Shown: piece after piece, positions 10,140 through 38,275 of the stretch
Layout of the letters: the number at the start of each line of letters is the position of its first letter
Numbering within the stretch: position 1 is the stretch's first letter
From: Candidatus Actinomarina sp.
GTDB taxonomy: Bacteria > Actinomycetota > Acidimicrobiia > Actinomarinales > Actinomarinaceae
Direction of reading: 5' to 3'
Length of the DNA: 45,894 nucleotides
Assembly (NCBI GenBank): GCA_016777845.1
Contig: JADHQS010000003.1
Location: 1-45,894, forward strand
Translations under genes and position numbers: made by a program
The notes under the pieces: model-generated
The model's input: the letters and a program-made list of their open reading frames with translations, nothing else
What the model was told of the DNA's origin: nothing
Database searches by the model: none

Positions 10140-11030
10140 TTAAAGCGAATTGATAAATAAATTATTTTTTGAAAGATCAATGCTTACATATATATAAGAA
10201 ATCCACAAAAAATCGGCAATTGCCAGGTGCAATATGCTTAAAGGCAGAACTATATTGGATAAAACATTTATGACTCCCAGAAATACAGCAATAAGTATTA
10301 ATATTTGTAATGGTTTAACGCCTACATTATATTTTTTTCTAACCCCGGTTGCGTAAACGTATAAAACTATCGATAGTGTTGAGGAAATAATTGGGTGTAA
10401 AATTCTTAATCTAGTCAACACTTCGGATGTTCTGTCAAAATCTGCTAAAAATCCTTCAACAAATGAAGTACTTGGAAATAAGACGTCAGCCAAAGCAGTG
10501 ATTGAGCCAGTTGCTCCACTTAGAAGAAACAAAGAAGAAATTAACAAAAAGTTTTTGGTGAACATACTTTTTATGTTCTGAAGATCATCTTGGAGTATTT
10601 TATATAATATTGCATAACTCCCTAGCAAACCAAAAGTGTTTACTAAATGAATTGGAACTGCAATGATTCTTGGGAGTGAACTATTAAGACCTACCCATTC
10701 AAAAATGACAATTACTGCTCCAATTAGCGCCTCAAAAATTACGAAAAAAGTAAGGTAATTAGTTACTATTCTTACCAAAGAGTCTTTTTGATATTTCCTA
10801 GTCTTTGCAAAAATTATCAAAGTAACAACTAATAAAACTCCACTTACAGAACGATGGGAAAATTCAATTAATTCTGAAGAATCTGATAATGCAGGAATTA
10901 TCTTTCCTTTACATGTAGGCCATGTAGCTCCACATCCATCTCCAGACCCGGTAGCCCTAACAAATGCACCAGCCAAAATTGAAGCTATTGATAATAAAAG
11001 ACCTGCTTTTGCGTAAGACTCGACTTTCAC
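10140..11030 (-). CDS. ctaA: Heme A synthase (COX15/CtaA)
   Basis: VRATGSGDGCGATWPTCKGKIIP, EFSHRSVSGVLL; multi-TM protein. Confidence 0.9.
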   Translation of the reverse strand: MKVESYAKAGLLLSIASILAGAFVRATGSGDGCGATWPTCKGKIIPALSDSSELIEFSHRSVSGVLLVVTLIIFAKTRKYQKDSLVRIVTNYLTFFVIFEALIGAVIVIFEWVGLNSSLPRIIAVPIHLVNTFGLLGSYAILYKILQDDLQNIKSMFTKNFLLISSLFLLSGATGSITALADVLFPSTSFVEGFLADFDRTSEVLTRLRILHPIISSTLSIVLYVYATGVRKKYNVGVKPLQILILIAVFLGVINVLSNIVLPLSILHLAIADFLWISYIYVSIDLSKNNLFINSL

Positions 11031-11629
11031 AATAAATTATCTAAAAATGTTCTAAGTGAATCCCAAAATAAGGAGAATGAATTATAAATAACAATAAAAA
11101 GCACCAGGAGCAAAGCTGTTGTTTTGAGATTTCTAGTTAAATAAAAACCAATTTGTTTTTGATCATATATATATGGCTCTTCGTCGGAAAACTCAAGGAG
11201 GTTAGTAGTTTGAACTGGTTTTGTAAGATATTCTTCTAAAGTTTCTTCTTTTACCTCAGAAACCTCAATTGATTCATAATCAAAATCATAAAGTGTTGAT
11301 TCTTTTCTTTGGAAGGTATTTCGAAGTTTATCAATTCTAGTTTGCTTAATTTGCACATCATCATTTTTTATTGAGAAGAGACTTTCTTCAGTTAATAATG
11401 AACCTACTTCTTTTAATTGTTCCGTTGAGAACCCATCAAGCGTCTGTGTTATTTCGGTACCTAACAATCCTTCAAGAGCATTAATAATTTTTTTATTCGT
11501 AGGAAAACTCGTTCCAGCTTCCCATTGCTTAACATCTTTTACTTTTACCCCTGTAAAAGAAGCAATCTGTTTATTACTTAAGCCCCTATCAGCTTTAAGT
11601 CTTTTAAATTCTATTTGAAAATTATTCAT
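11027..11629 (-). CDS. XRE-type helix-turn-helix protein with C-terminal transmembrane segment
   Basis: FKRLKADRGLSNKQIASFTGVKVKDVKQWEAGTSFPTNKKIINALE HTH; C-terminal TTALLLVLFIVIYNSFSLF TM. Start set at MNNFQIEF; the upstream part of the ORF-track call is antisense to tRNA-Sec. Confidence 0.75.
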   Translation of the reverse strand: MNNFQIEFKRLKADRGLSNKQIASFTGVKVKDVKQWEAGTSFPTNKKIINALEGLLGTEITQTLDGFSTEQLKEVGSLLTEESLFSIKNDDVQIKQTRIDKLRNTFQRKESTLYDFDYESIEVSEVKEETLEEYLTKPVQTTNLLEFSDEEPYIYDQKQIGFYLTRNLKTTALLLVLFIVIYNSFSLFWDSLRTFLDNLL

Positions 11630-11680
11630 TACTTTAATTCTATTCAATATAATTTTTTTTATATAACTAGTCTTAAGTAC

Positions 11681-11772
11681 GGAGGTGAATGAGCGCCTGG
11701 TGGGCTCCACAGTCTTCAAAACTGTTGAAAGGTGTAAAAGTCTTTGGCAGGTTCGATTCCTGTCCACCTCCG
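11681..11772 (+). tRNA. selC: tRNA-Sec, anticodon UCA
   Basis: GGAGGTGA...CCACCTCC-G acceptor (7 pairs plus A/C at position 8), anticodon arm ACAGT-CTTCAAA-ACTGT with UCA anticodon, long variable arm GAAAGGTGTAAAAGTCTTT, T arm GCAGG-TTCGATT-CCTGT; no encoded CCA. Confidence 0.93.
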
Positions 11773-11807
11773 CTACTTTATAAGATATATATGTTTAATA
11801 TAGAAAA

Positions 11808-12137
11808 ATGGCAGAAGAAAAAAGCTTATTAGATGAGGTGCAAGAAGCACCTGCTGGTTTCAAAGTTTCTCCAGGTTGGAGAGTTGGTCACTTAAAAGAA
11901 GAGACAATTACTAAATCAGGGCTTTTTGTACCAGCTGGTAGTGAAAAAACTTCAGAAGCACTTCCTCTTATTGATGTTGATACAAGACAGCAGTTCTGGG
12001 CTGTAGCTAGTGGTGCATGGAAATTTATCTGGCCTCCAACTGGAAAAGTAGTTTTAGCTGTTAGAGAATCTCAAATTATTGCTGAAGAAGAGCTTTCAAA
12101 ATCTTCTCAAAATGGCCAATTACCTATAATGAAATAA
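11808..12137 (+). CDS. Small protein with weak GroES/Cpn10-like resemblance
   Basis: SPGWRVGHLKEETITKSGLFVPAGSEKTSEA and C-terminal GKVVLAVRESQIIAEEE resemble Cpn10 N- and C-terminal strands; the middle is divergent. Confidence 0.4.
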   Translation: MAEEKSLLDEVQEAPAGFKVSPGWRVGHLKEETITKSGLFVPAGSEKTSEALPLIDVDTRQQFWAVASGAWKFIWPPTGKVVLAVRESQIIAEEELSKSSQNGQLPIMK

Positions 12138-13457
12138 TTGAATCAAAGAAATAATCCAAACCAATCAGACAGAAGGCTTCTAACAGTATCTGATAGAGAT
12201 ATCTTTGTCACTACTCAAAAAGCATTATTAATTGGAATAGTCTTAAAAAACGAAATAAGAGCTGACAAGGAAGAGTCTCTTAAAGAGCTTGTAAATTTAG
12301 TAAAAACTGCTGGATCAAGTCCAACAATAATCCAGACTAAAAGGGTTGAAAAAATTGATCCTAAAACTTTTATTGGTAAAGGTTCTATAAAAGAATTGGT
12401 AGATATCTCAGATGCAAATGATATTGATGTGGTTTTATTTGATTGCGAATTAACTCCAAATCAACAGAAAGAATTGAGAGCTTTATTCAAGTGTGATGTA
12501 GTAGACAGGACTGGTCTTATCCTTGATATATTTGCACTTCATGCTCAGTCAAAGGAAGCCAGCTTACAAGTTGAATTAGCTTTATCAATTTACTTAAAAC
12601 CACGTTTAGCCGGCTTAGGTAAAACTTTGAATCAGCAGGGCGGTGGTATAGGAACAAGAGGACCTGGAGAAACAAAGCTTGAAACAGACAATAGATTGAT
12701 AGACAACAGAATTAATAAATTAAAAAGGGAAATTAAAAAAGTTAGTAAACAAAGAGAAGTGCAATCTAGCTTTAGAAAGAAAAATAATACACCCCTTGTT
12801 TCAATTGTTGGTTATACGAATGCAGGAAAATCTACCATGCTAGAAAAAATTACTTCTTCGAAAACATACGTAGCTAATGAGTTATTTGCAACTGTTGATT
12901 CTTTACAAAGAGAGTTAAAAATTGATGGAATAAATGAGCACATAATACTCTCAGATACAGTTGGGTTTATTCAAAATCTTCCAACAACATTGATCGAATC
13001 TTTTAAATCAACACTTACAGTTGTTAAAGAAGCAAATTTATTAATTCATGTTGTTGACGCAGCATCCGCAATACCCGAAATGCATATAAATACTGTGCAT
13101 GAAATACTAGACCAGATTGAAGCAGATGTGCCTGAAATATTGGTTTTTAATAAAATAGATAGAATTGACAAGGCGTCTTTAAATTATTTAACGGAAAAAT
13201 ATCCAGATGCAATATTTGTATCATCAACAAAAGGGACAAACATTGAAAAATTAATTTCTGAGATTACAACAAATGTCTTTGGTGATCTAAATGAAGTTTC
13301 ACTTATAATATCACCTAAGGACTTGGATCAACTGCACAAGTATTCTTCCATCGTAAGTGTTAAAAATATTGAAGAGGGGTTAGAAGTAATTGTAGAAATT
13401 AGAAATTATTACCTAGAAAATCTGCTTCAAAAAGATGTTGTTAAACTTTTATCATGA
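12138..13457 (+). CDS. hflX: GTPase HflX (TTG start)
   Basis: QQGGGIGTRGPGETKLETDNRLIDNRINKLKREI, VGYTNAGKSTML, DTVGFIQNLPTTLIESFKSTL, FNKID. Confidence 0.95.
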   Translation: MNQRNNPNQSDRRLLTVSDRDIFVTTQKALLIGIVLKNEIRADKEESLKELVNLVKTAGSSPTIIQTKRVEKIDPKTFIGKGSIKELVDISDANDIDVVLFDCELTPNQQKELRALFKCDVVDRTGLILDIFALHAQSKEASLQVELALSIYLKPRLAGLGKTLNQQGGGIGTRGPGETKLETDNRLIDNRINKLKREIKKVSKQREVQSSFRKKNNTPLVSIVGYTNAGKSTMLEKITSSKTYVANELFATVDSLQRELKIDGINEHIILSDTVGFIQNLPTTLIESFKSTLTVVKEANLLIHVVDAASAIPEMHINTVHEILDQIEADVPEILVFNKIDRIDKASLNYLTEKYPDAIFVSSTKGTNIEKLISEITTNVFGDLNEVSLIISPKDLDQLHKYSSIVSVKNIEEGLEVIVEIRNYYLENLLQKDVVKLLS

Positions 13458-36330: not shown

Positions 36331-37250
36331 AAACTAAAAAATTCTCTAAGTTCTGTTAATAAATCTTCTTCATGTGTCCATGGCACTGAGTGGCCAGCAT
36401 CAGGAAAAGTTTTCACTTTTACTTCTTTTAACCTCTTAACAACATCATTTGAAGTTTCTTCTGGTACAAGTTTATCTCTACCCCCAGTAATTACAAGGGT
36501 CTCAGCTTCAATTTCTTGTATCCAAGATCTTGCATCATAAGGAACAACAAATCTTCCCCCATCTGCGTAAATGAAGTCATCTTTTGATTTATGCAGATTA
36601 TTCCATGCCCACTCTGTATATTCATCGTTAATAGAGTTTGATTTTTTTAAAAATGAAAACTTAGATTTTGGATTGAAATTAGGGAATAATCTTTCTCTTA
36701 TTCTTACAAAACTAACAAATATTTTAAATGCTACCTTATCGCTATACACAGCACCACCAAGCCAGCTAAAAGGTGTAATTAAAACTAATTTATTTACTAA
36801 TGGCTTATTTTTTTTAGCAATTGACATTGCAACTGCACTTCCCATTGACCAACCTACAATATTGCAACTTGAAATGCCAAGCTCTTTTAGAATGCTAATA
36901 ACAACATCGGCATTTTCATCTACGTCCCACCTGTCCCAACTAGCATCAGACTTTCCGTGATTTCGCATGTCTATAGCAACAAAGGAGGTTTCATTTTTAA
37001 TTTTAGGTAATATTTTAAACCAGCTTCCTAGGGAGTCTGACCCCCAGCTATGGAGAAATATTATAGGAGTTGTGCCGTCTATAATATTTTCTCTAATAAA
37101 GTATTCTTTTTCTCTTATGAATACAGTCCTGCCTGGAATTTTACTTGGGTGAATTTGTGTAGTTCCTGCAGATTGGCTCTTTTTCGTCTCAAGTAGGCTT
37201 TTTGTTACTGCAGTCAAAGCAAAAATTTTAGTTAGTGTTTTAATCATCAA
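36327..37250 (-). CDS. Alpha/beta hydrolase
   Basis: IFLHSWGSDSLGSW, DMRNHGKSD, NIVGWSMGSAVAM (GxSxG), FPDAGHSVPW. Confidence 0.88.
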   Translation of the reverse strand: MMIKTLTKIFALTAVTKSLLETKKSQSAGTTQIHPSKIPGRTVFIREKEYFIRENIIDGTTPIIFLHSWGSDSLGSWFKILPKIKNETSFVAIDMRNHGKSDASWDRWDVDENADVVISILKELGISSCNIVGWSMGSAVAMSIAKKNKPLVNKLVLITPFSWLGGAVYSDKVAFKIFVSFVRIRERLFPNFNPKSKFSFLKKSNSINDEYTEWAWNNLHKSKDDFIYADGGRFVVPYDARSWIQEIEAETLVITGGRDKLVPEETSNDVVKRLKEVKVKTFPDAGHSVPWTHEEDLLTELREFFSL

Positions 37251-38275
37251 CTACTAATAATATTTATTTTTTGATTATATCTATCGGTTATATTTCCAAT
37301 TTCTTTTACAAGAACACCATATTTTTTTTCAATTTCTACCAAATCTATATCTGTTTCAGCAGGTGCAGAAATTAATAATCCTCCACTGGTTTGAGCATCT
37401 GCTAATAAAAGTGCCTCATCTTGATTCTCGAATGATATAAAGTCTTTTACTGAGTCAAAATTTCTTTGGCTTCCTGATGGATAAATGCCACTATGAAAAT
37501 AATTTTTTGCAAACTCAATGATTGGAACTTTATCGAATATCAAATTTGCTGATAATTTTTCATCAATCAACATCTCACTGAGATGGCCAAGAAGTCCAAA
37601 ACCAGTAACGTCTGTAATTGCATTTGCATTGAGATACTTTGCGACTTCAAGGCCTACATCATTTAAGGTTGTCATTACATTTGTTACCTGATTTATTGCT
37701 TCTTCATCAGCGACACCTTTTTTTATTGCAGTTGCAATAATTCCAGAACCGAGAGGCTTGGTTAGAAAAAGTTTATCTCCATTTTTGATATTCGTTTTTG
37801 TATAGATTTTTTCATTAACGATACCTGTTACAGCAAAACCATATTTTGGTTCTTTGTCGTCAATACTGTGCCCTCCAACAATATTACAATTGGCAGATTT
37901 CATTACGTCTGCACCGCCCTTAATAACATCTGATAAAACGTCAAAACCTATATCTTCTCTTGGCCAACTAACTAACTGTAAAGATGAAATAGGTGCACCT
38001 CCCATGGCATAAATATCAGATAATGCATTTGCTGCGGCAACTCTACCCCAGTCATAAGGGTTATCTAAAATAGGAGTAAAAAAATCAACTGTTTGTACAA
38101 TTTTGATACTGTTTCCTAGATCAATAACTGCACCGTCATCTGGATTTTCTAACCCAACTAAGACTTCAGAATTGTTTGAATTATTTTGTTTTGATTGCTT
38201 CAGAACCTGAGCAAGCTCTCTTTGGGAGAGTTTACATGCTCAACCTGAGCCATGAGAATACTCTGTGAGTCTCAC
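37247..38275 (-). CDS. selD: Selenide, water dikinase, a selenoprotein with in-frame UGA (Sec) at 38240-38242; the ORF track shows only the part after an internal Met
   Basis: Reverse strand from GTG 38275: (V/M)RLTEYSHGSG-U-ACKLSQRELAQVL...VGLENPDDGAVIDLG..IVQTVDFFTPILDNPYDWGRVAAANALSDIYAMGGAPISS, continuous with ORF 37247-38005. GGGG-rich RBS directly upstream. UGA sits at the known SelD catalytic Cys/Sec position. Confidence 0.95.
38208..38242 (-). promoter_or_regulatory. Candidate bacterial SECIS-like hairpin at the selD UGA
   Basis: RNA UGAGCA-UGUAAA-CUCUC-CCAAA-GAGAG-CU-UGCUCA: 6-bp outer stem containing the UGA plus 5-bp inner stem with CCAAA loop. Confidence 0.6.

Follow-up and report, generated by a model that had tools for sequence, protein, structure and literature searches.

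The window analyzed here, that is, the whole stretch of 45,894 nucleotides from Candidatus Actinomarina sp., contains one tRNA gene, selC, located on the forward strand at 11681..11772 and reported by ARAGORN as tRNA-SeC(tca) (11681-11773) with the anticodon at position 36 of the gene, corresponding to the UCA triplet at 11716..11718 (+), complementary to UGA. The covariance model of bacterial tRNA-Sec (Rfam RF01852) aligns with this gene over its complete length (model 1-91) at 75.4 bits with an E value of 8.3e-14, the gathering threshold being 47, and nothing else in the 751-kb genome reaches this threshold, the next best match scoring 40 bits. A preliminary description of this DNA had recognized a tRNA-Sec with UCA in a CTTCAAA loop, a long variable arm, and no encoded CCA. 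Reporting only the top-scoring member of the tRNA clan, cmscan returned tRNA-Sec, well above the cut-off, in preference to a tRNA-Ser, a suppressor, or a pseudo-tRNA, and so supports that identification. Read directly, the anticodon loop is CTTCAAA with TCA, the variable arm is long, the discriminator G73 is the G at 11772, the 3' end reads CTA, not CCA, and the D-stem, GAGC(g)CC UGGU GGGCUC, has six pairs with one bulged G and a 4-nt D-loop. Folded by itself, the gene exceeds 198 of 200 shuffled sequences in stability. It is a real, functional-looking, and ordinary tRNA-Sec, a known kind of tRNA for known selenoprotein families. A scan for promoters and terminators around selC found none, and a search of viral contigs with the 5' part of the tRNA gave no match. 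Just 5' of the gene lies a motif, TATAyAAyTAGTCTTA (11660-11676), which is near-invariant in the genus while the remaining intergenic region is variable, and which is possibly the selC promoter.

The genes surrounding selC do not belong to the selenocysteine (Sec) system. On the minus strand, a helix-turn-helix (HTH) gene (11027..11629) flanks selC in the genus, as found by family search and comparison of the genus loci, and hflX (12138..13457, +; TIGR03156, 409 bits) is the conserved 3' neighbor, present in 27 of 28 genus loci; wherever the contig allows, selC sits between these same two genes across the genus. As had been noticed earlier, a minus-strand open reading frame (11027-11767) runs across the tRNA gene. 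Of the 27 genus relatives that carry this HTH gene upstream, 21 have its frame closed ahead of the tRNA, and only six, all close relatives, keep it open; the true start of the HTH gene is therefore probably the ATG at 11629, and the extension to 11767 over selC is judged to be spurious. The gene at 11808-12137, between selC and hflX, had been called GroES-like, a label for which family searches give no support, Pfam yielding nothing up to a limit of E ≤ 10 and NCBIfam nothing at all; of 28 genus loci, 12 have this gene and the others lack it. The distance of about 25 kb previously given between selC and selD was measured as 25.5 kb. Such scattering of the Sec genes is also seen in another genome of the genus (G037), in which selA-selB, selC, and selD are each on a separate contig.

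The selD gene, encoding selenophosphate synthetase, occupies 37247..38275 on the minus strand and starts with GTG at 38275; with its in-frame UGA read through, the product matches TIGR00476 at 377 bits (E 7e-113). The UGA codon (38240..38242, -) stands in the context KVRLTEYSHGSG-U-ACKLSQ, at the catalytic Cys position, and all related SelD genes that were parsed, ranging from Actinomarina to Marinimicrobia, have a TGA there too. The listed open reading frame 37247-38005 is the remainder of selD, which, by starting at 38005, lacks 90 codons, among them those of the catalytic loop. At and directly after the UGA, a candidate bacterial SECIS hairpin (38208..38242, -) is predicted with a folding energy of -15.6 kcal/mol (z -1.6); the consensus hairpin persists across 13 variants and shows little covariation, and we regard it as a candidate of moderate strength. 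SelD is the second most widespread selenoprotein family in prokaryotes (PMC13188914), and the protein encoded in the window, with Sec at the catalytic position in a single domain, shows no substantive difference from other Sec-containing SelD, its own motif being GSGUACK. Single-cell and metagenome records of Candidatus Actinomarina match this protein with up to 97% identity.

Further genes with an in-frame UGA were sought by comparing G037 with the genome to which the window belongs (G000), UGAs lying under another long open reading frame being dropped, and by a screen for C/U redox motifs; this search was not exhaustive, and simpler screens of the same two genomes, which are very similar, were swamped by antisense frames. 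Three thiol-redox proteins emerged: an AhpD-like peroxidase-related protein of the CxxU type (TIGR01926, 137 bits; NECEY-U-IRAH), a ResA/TlpA-like thioredoxin-like protein of the UxxC type (WADY-U-GVC), and a membrane-anchored thioredoxin-like protein, likewise UxxC (SDY-U-LGC), whose genes in the own genome are located at G000:C23:6422-6979 (-), G000:C35:13117-13596 (+), and G000:C17:54608-55078 (+), respectively. Homologues were found in 31 (AhpD-like), 34 (ResA/TlpA-like), and 32 (membrane-anchored) genomes of the genus; exactly one in-frame TGA is present in every one of them, with protein identities down to about 45%, and in all 90 loci checked it falls at the same column together with the C/U redox motifs. 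A SECIS hairpin of the AhpD-like gene is a weak candidate. Another high-scoring UGA (G037:C1:42665) was rejected, being judged by eye to separate two adjacent genes, the end of a DeoC-like one and the start of an aldehyde-dehydrogenase-like one. Accordingly, at least four genes of the own genome, including selD, carry a conserved in-frame UGA that is predicted to be read by tRNA-Sec. Ocean surveys count AhpD-like (CxxU) and thioredoxin-like (UxxC) proteins among the commonest selenoproteins (PMC2398784). The Actinomarina proteins belong to the same general families as those of the GOS marine survey, as judged by Pfam/NCBIfam signatures and redox motifs, whereas here they are tied to a named host genus, Actinobacteria being unmentioned in the GOS text (PMC2398784).

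Within the genus, tRNA-Sec is found at 71 bits or more in 40 of 42 genomes, and the selC sequence of the window recurs unchanged in 11 other genomes. The companion genes are distributed as follows: selD lies in the window itself, and SelA scores above its curated cut-off in 34 of the 42 genomes, being absent from eight, the own genome included. In the genus genomes compared, selA is followed 11-26 nt further 3' by a gene giving a full-length SelB-like match. These matches score below the curated NCBIfam cut-off of 242 bits, and the protein is taken as a divergent SelB by its position and length. The own genome, which is 77% complete, yielded no SelA, and no SelB beyond EF-Tu-like GTPases. A SelB match in it (on contig C17; 210 bits, 407 aa) is probably EF-Tu, as it has the right size, lies near a 696-aa translational-GTPase-like frame, and has a similar protein in nearly all relatives. 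Since selA-selB forms one adjacent pair elsewhere, a single gap could explain both absences, which are therefore probably due to incompleteness of the genome.

The acceptor branch of the tRNA deserves separate consideration. In the RF01852 alignment all 13 positions of the branch are present, and pair 8 of the 8+5 layout is A.C, as had been noted before; this mismatch is real, although it is a lineage-wide property and not a local oddity. We compared 40 actinobacterial tRNA-Sec having C66 (7 from the genus, 15 from elsewhere in the class, and 18 from elsewhere in the phylum, distinct within each group), and in all 40 nucleotide 8 is A or U, for which pairing with C66 is impossible, while G48, just 5' of the T-stem, is invariant and able to pair with C66. 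Folding of the window tRNA predicts 7 pairs in the acceptor and 6 in the T-stem, 13 bp in total. Because nucleotide 8 never pairs with C66, G48 always can, and the fold is 7+6, this layout describes the branch no less well than a mismatched 8+5 does. A8.C66 is thus not a defect, and the comparison suggests 7+6 in preference to 8+5; the very invariance of G48 means that covariation cannot prove the 7+6 form. We tentatively propose that most actinobacterial tRNA-Sec, that of the window included, may pair 7 bp in the acceptor and 6 bp in the T-stem, the latter closed by G48-C66, in place of the textbook 8+5, with 13 stacked pairs, the junction shifted by one, and nucleotide 8 free. Outside this phylum, too, pair 8 is mismatched in some tRNA-Sec, while others there keep it. 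The window tRNA otherwise shares with bacterial tRNA-Sec of RF01852 the UCA anticodon, the long variable arm, G73, the 6-bp D-stem with a 4-nt loop, and 13 nucleotides in the 3' strand of the acceptor/T branch, differing in pair 8, which cannot form, and in the one bulged G of the D-stem, which is conserved in the genus and recurs in many tRNA-Sec elsewhere in the class. Branches of 12 bp and bulged variants, including one at D-stem position 13a in Clostridiales, have already been described (PMC5330540). One group of the same class (L139, L141, and L148-L151) has a 7+5 tRNA-Sec, one nucleotide shorter, a form likewise described previously (PMC5330540).

The tRNA, the UGA-containing genes with their conservation, and the presence of SelA and SelB in relatives are read from the sequences; a function as tRNA-Sec is supported by the conservation of selC across the genus, by SelA and SelB in relatives, and by the four UGA-containing genes. 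It is most likely, with a probability that we put at about 96%, that selC encodes a functional bacterial tRNA-Sec serving SelD and the three thiol-redox proteins through the SerRS/SelA/SelB pathway. In the predicted pathway, SerRS would charge tRNA-Sec with serine, SelA would convert the Ser-tRNA into Sec-tRNA using selenophosphate supplied by SelD, and SelB would bring the Sec-tRNA to UGA codons followed on the 3' side by a SECIS hairpin, the products in the genus including SelD itself, the AhpD-like protein, and the two thioredoxin-like proteins; selA-selB would reside in the missing part of the own genome.

That selC might instead be a relic or pseudo-tRNA deprived of its system is a thought prompted by the lack, in the own genome, of a SelA match and of any SelB beyond EF-Tu-like GTPases, and by the A8.C mismatch in the acceptor. 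Yet one missing locus suffices to account for the absent pair in a genome that is 77% complete, the mismatch is common to all actinobacterial C66 tRNA-Sec compared, the sequence is kept identical in 11 other genomes of the genus, and UGA is kept in four genes of the own genome, so that we consider a relic very improbable. Equally little weight can be given to the idea that selC is a UGA suppressor or an allo-tRNA/selC*-type tRNA inserting serine or cysteine in place of Sec; although Sec-like tRNAs other than tRNA-Sec do exist (PMC7609411), the G73, the UCA anticodon, and the six-pair D-stem fit tRNA-Sec, SelA, SelB, and Sec-type SelD co-occur in the genus, and UGA is placed at redox-active positions beside a Cys motif partner, as expected for Sec.

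Candidatus Actinomarina lives in the surface ocean and has a genome of about 1 Mb. Its tRNA-Sec, Sec-type SelD, AhpD-like CxxU protein, and thioredoxin-like UxxC proteins are all of described kinds, and the interest of the finding is modest, consisting in the conservation of a Sec trait throughout a marine genus with highly reduced genomes, whose selenoprotein genes standard annotation hides. A literature search, mostly confined to papers accessible without subscription and hence not proving that the trait is unreported, found no paper containing both Actinomarina and selenocysteine, and the Actinomarinales genome paper contains no word beginning with 'selen'. In practical terms, annotation restricted to coding sequences cuts the selenoprotein genes of Actinomarina at UGA, and the selD of the window would start 90 codons late. 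With these results, selenoprotein families encountered in marine surveys also gain a host. The pairing of the acceptor branch in actinobacterial tRNA-Sec is a testable question; if the 7+6 form holds true, SelB and SelA would gauge the total length of the branch, not that of the acceptor. Finally, that Candidatus Actinomarina has kept an entire Sec pathway through such genome reduction, for SelD and three thiol-redox proteins, implies that selenium is of importance to it.
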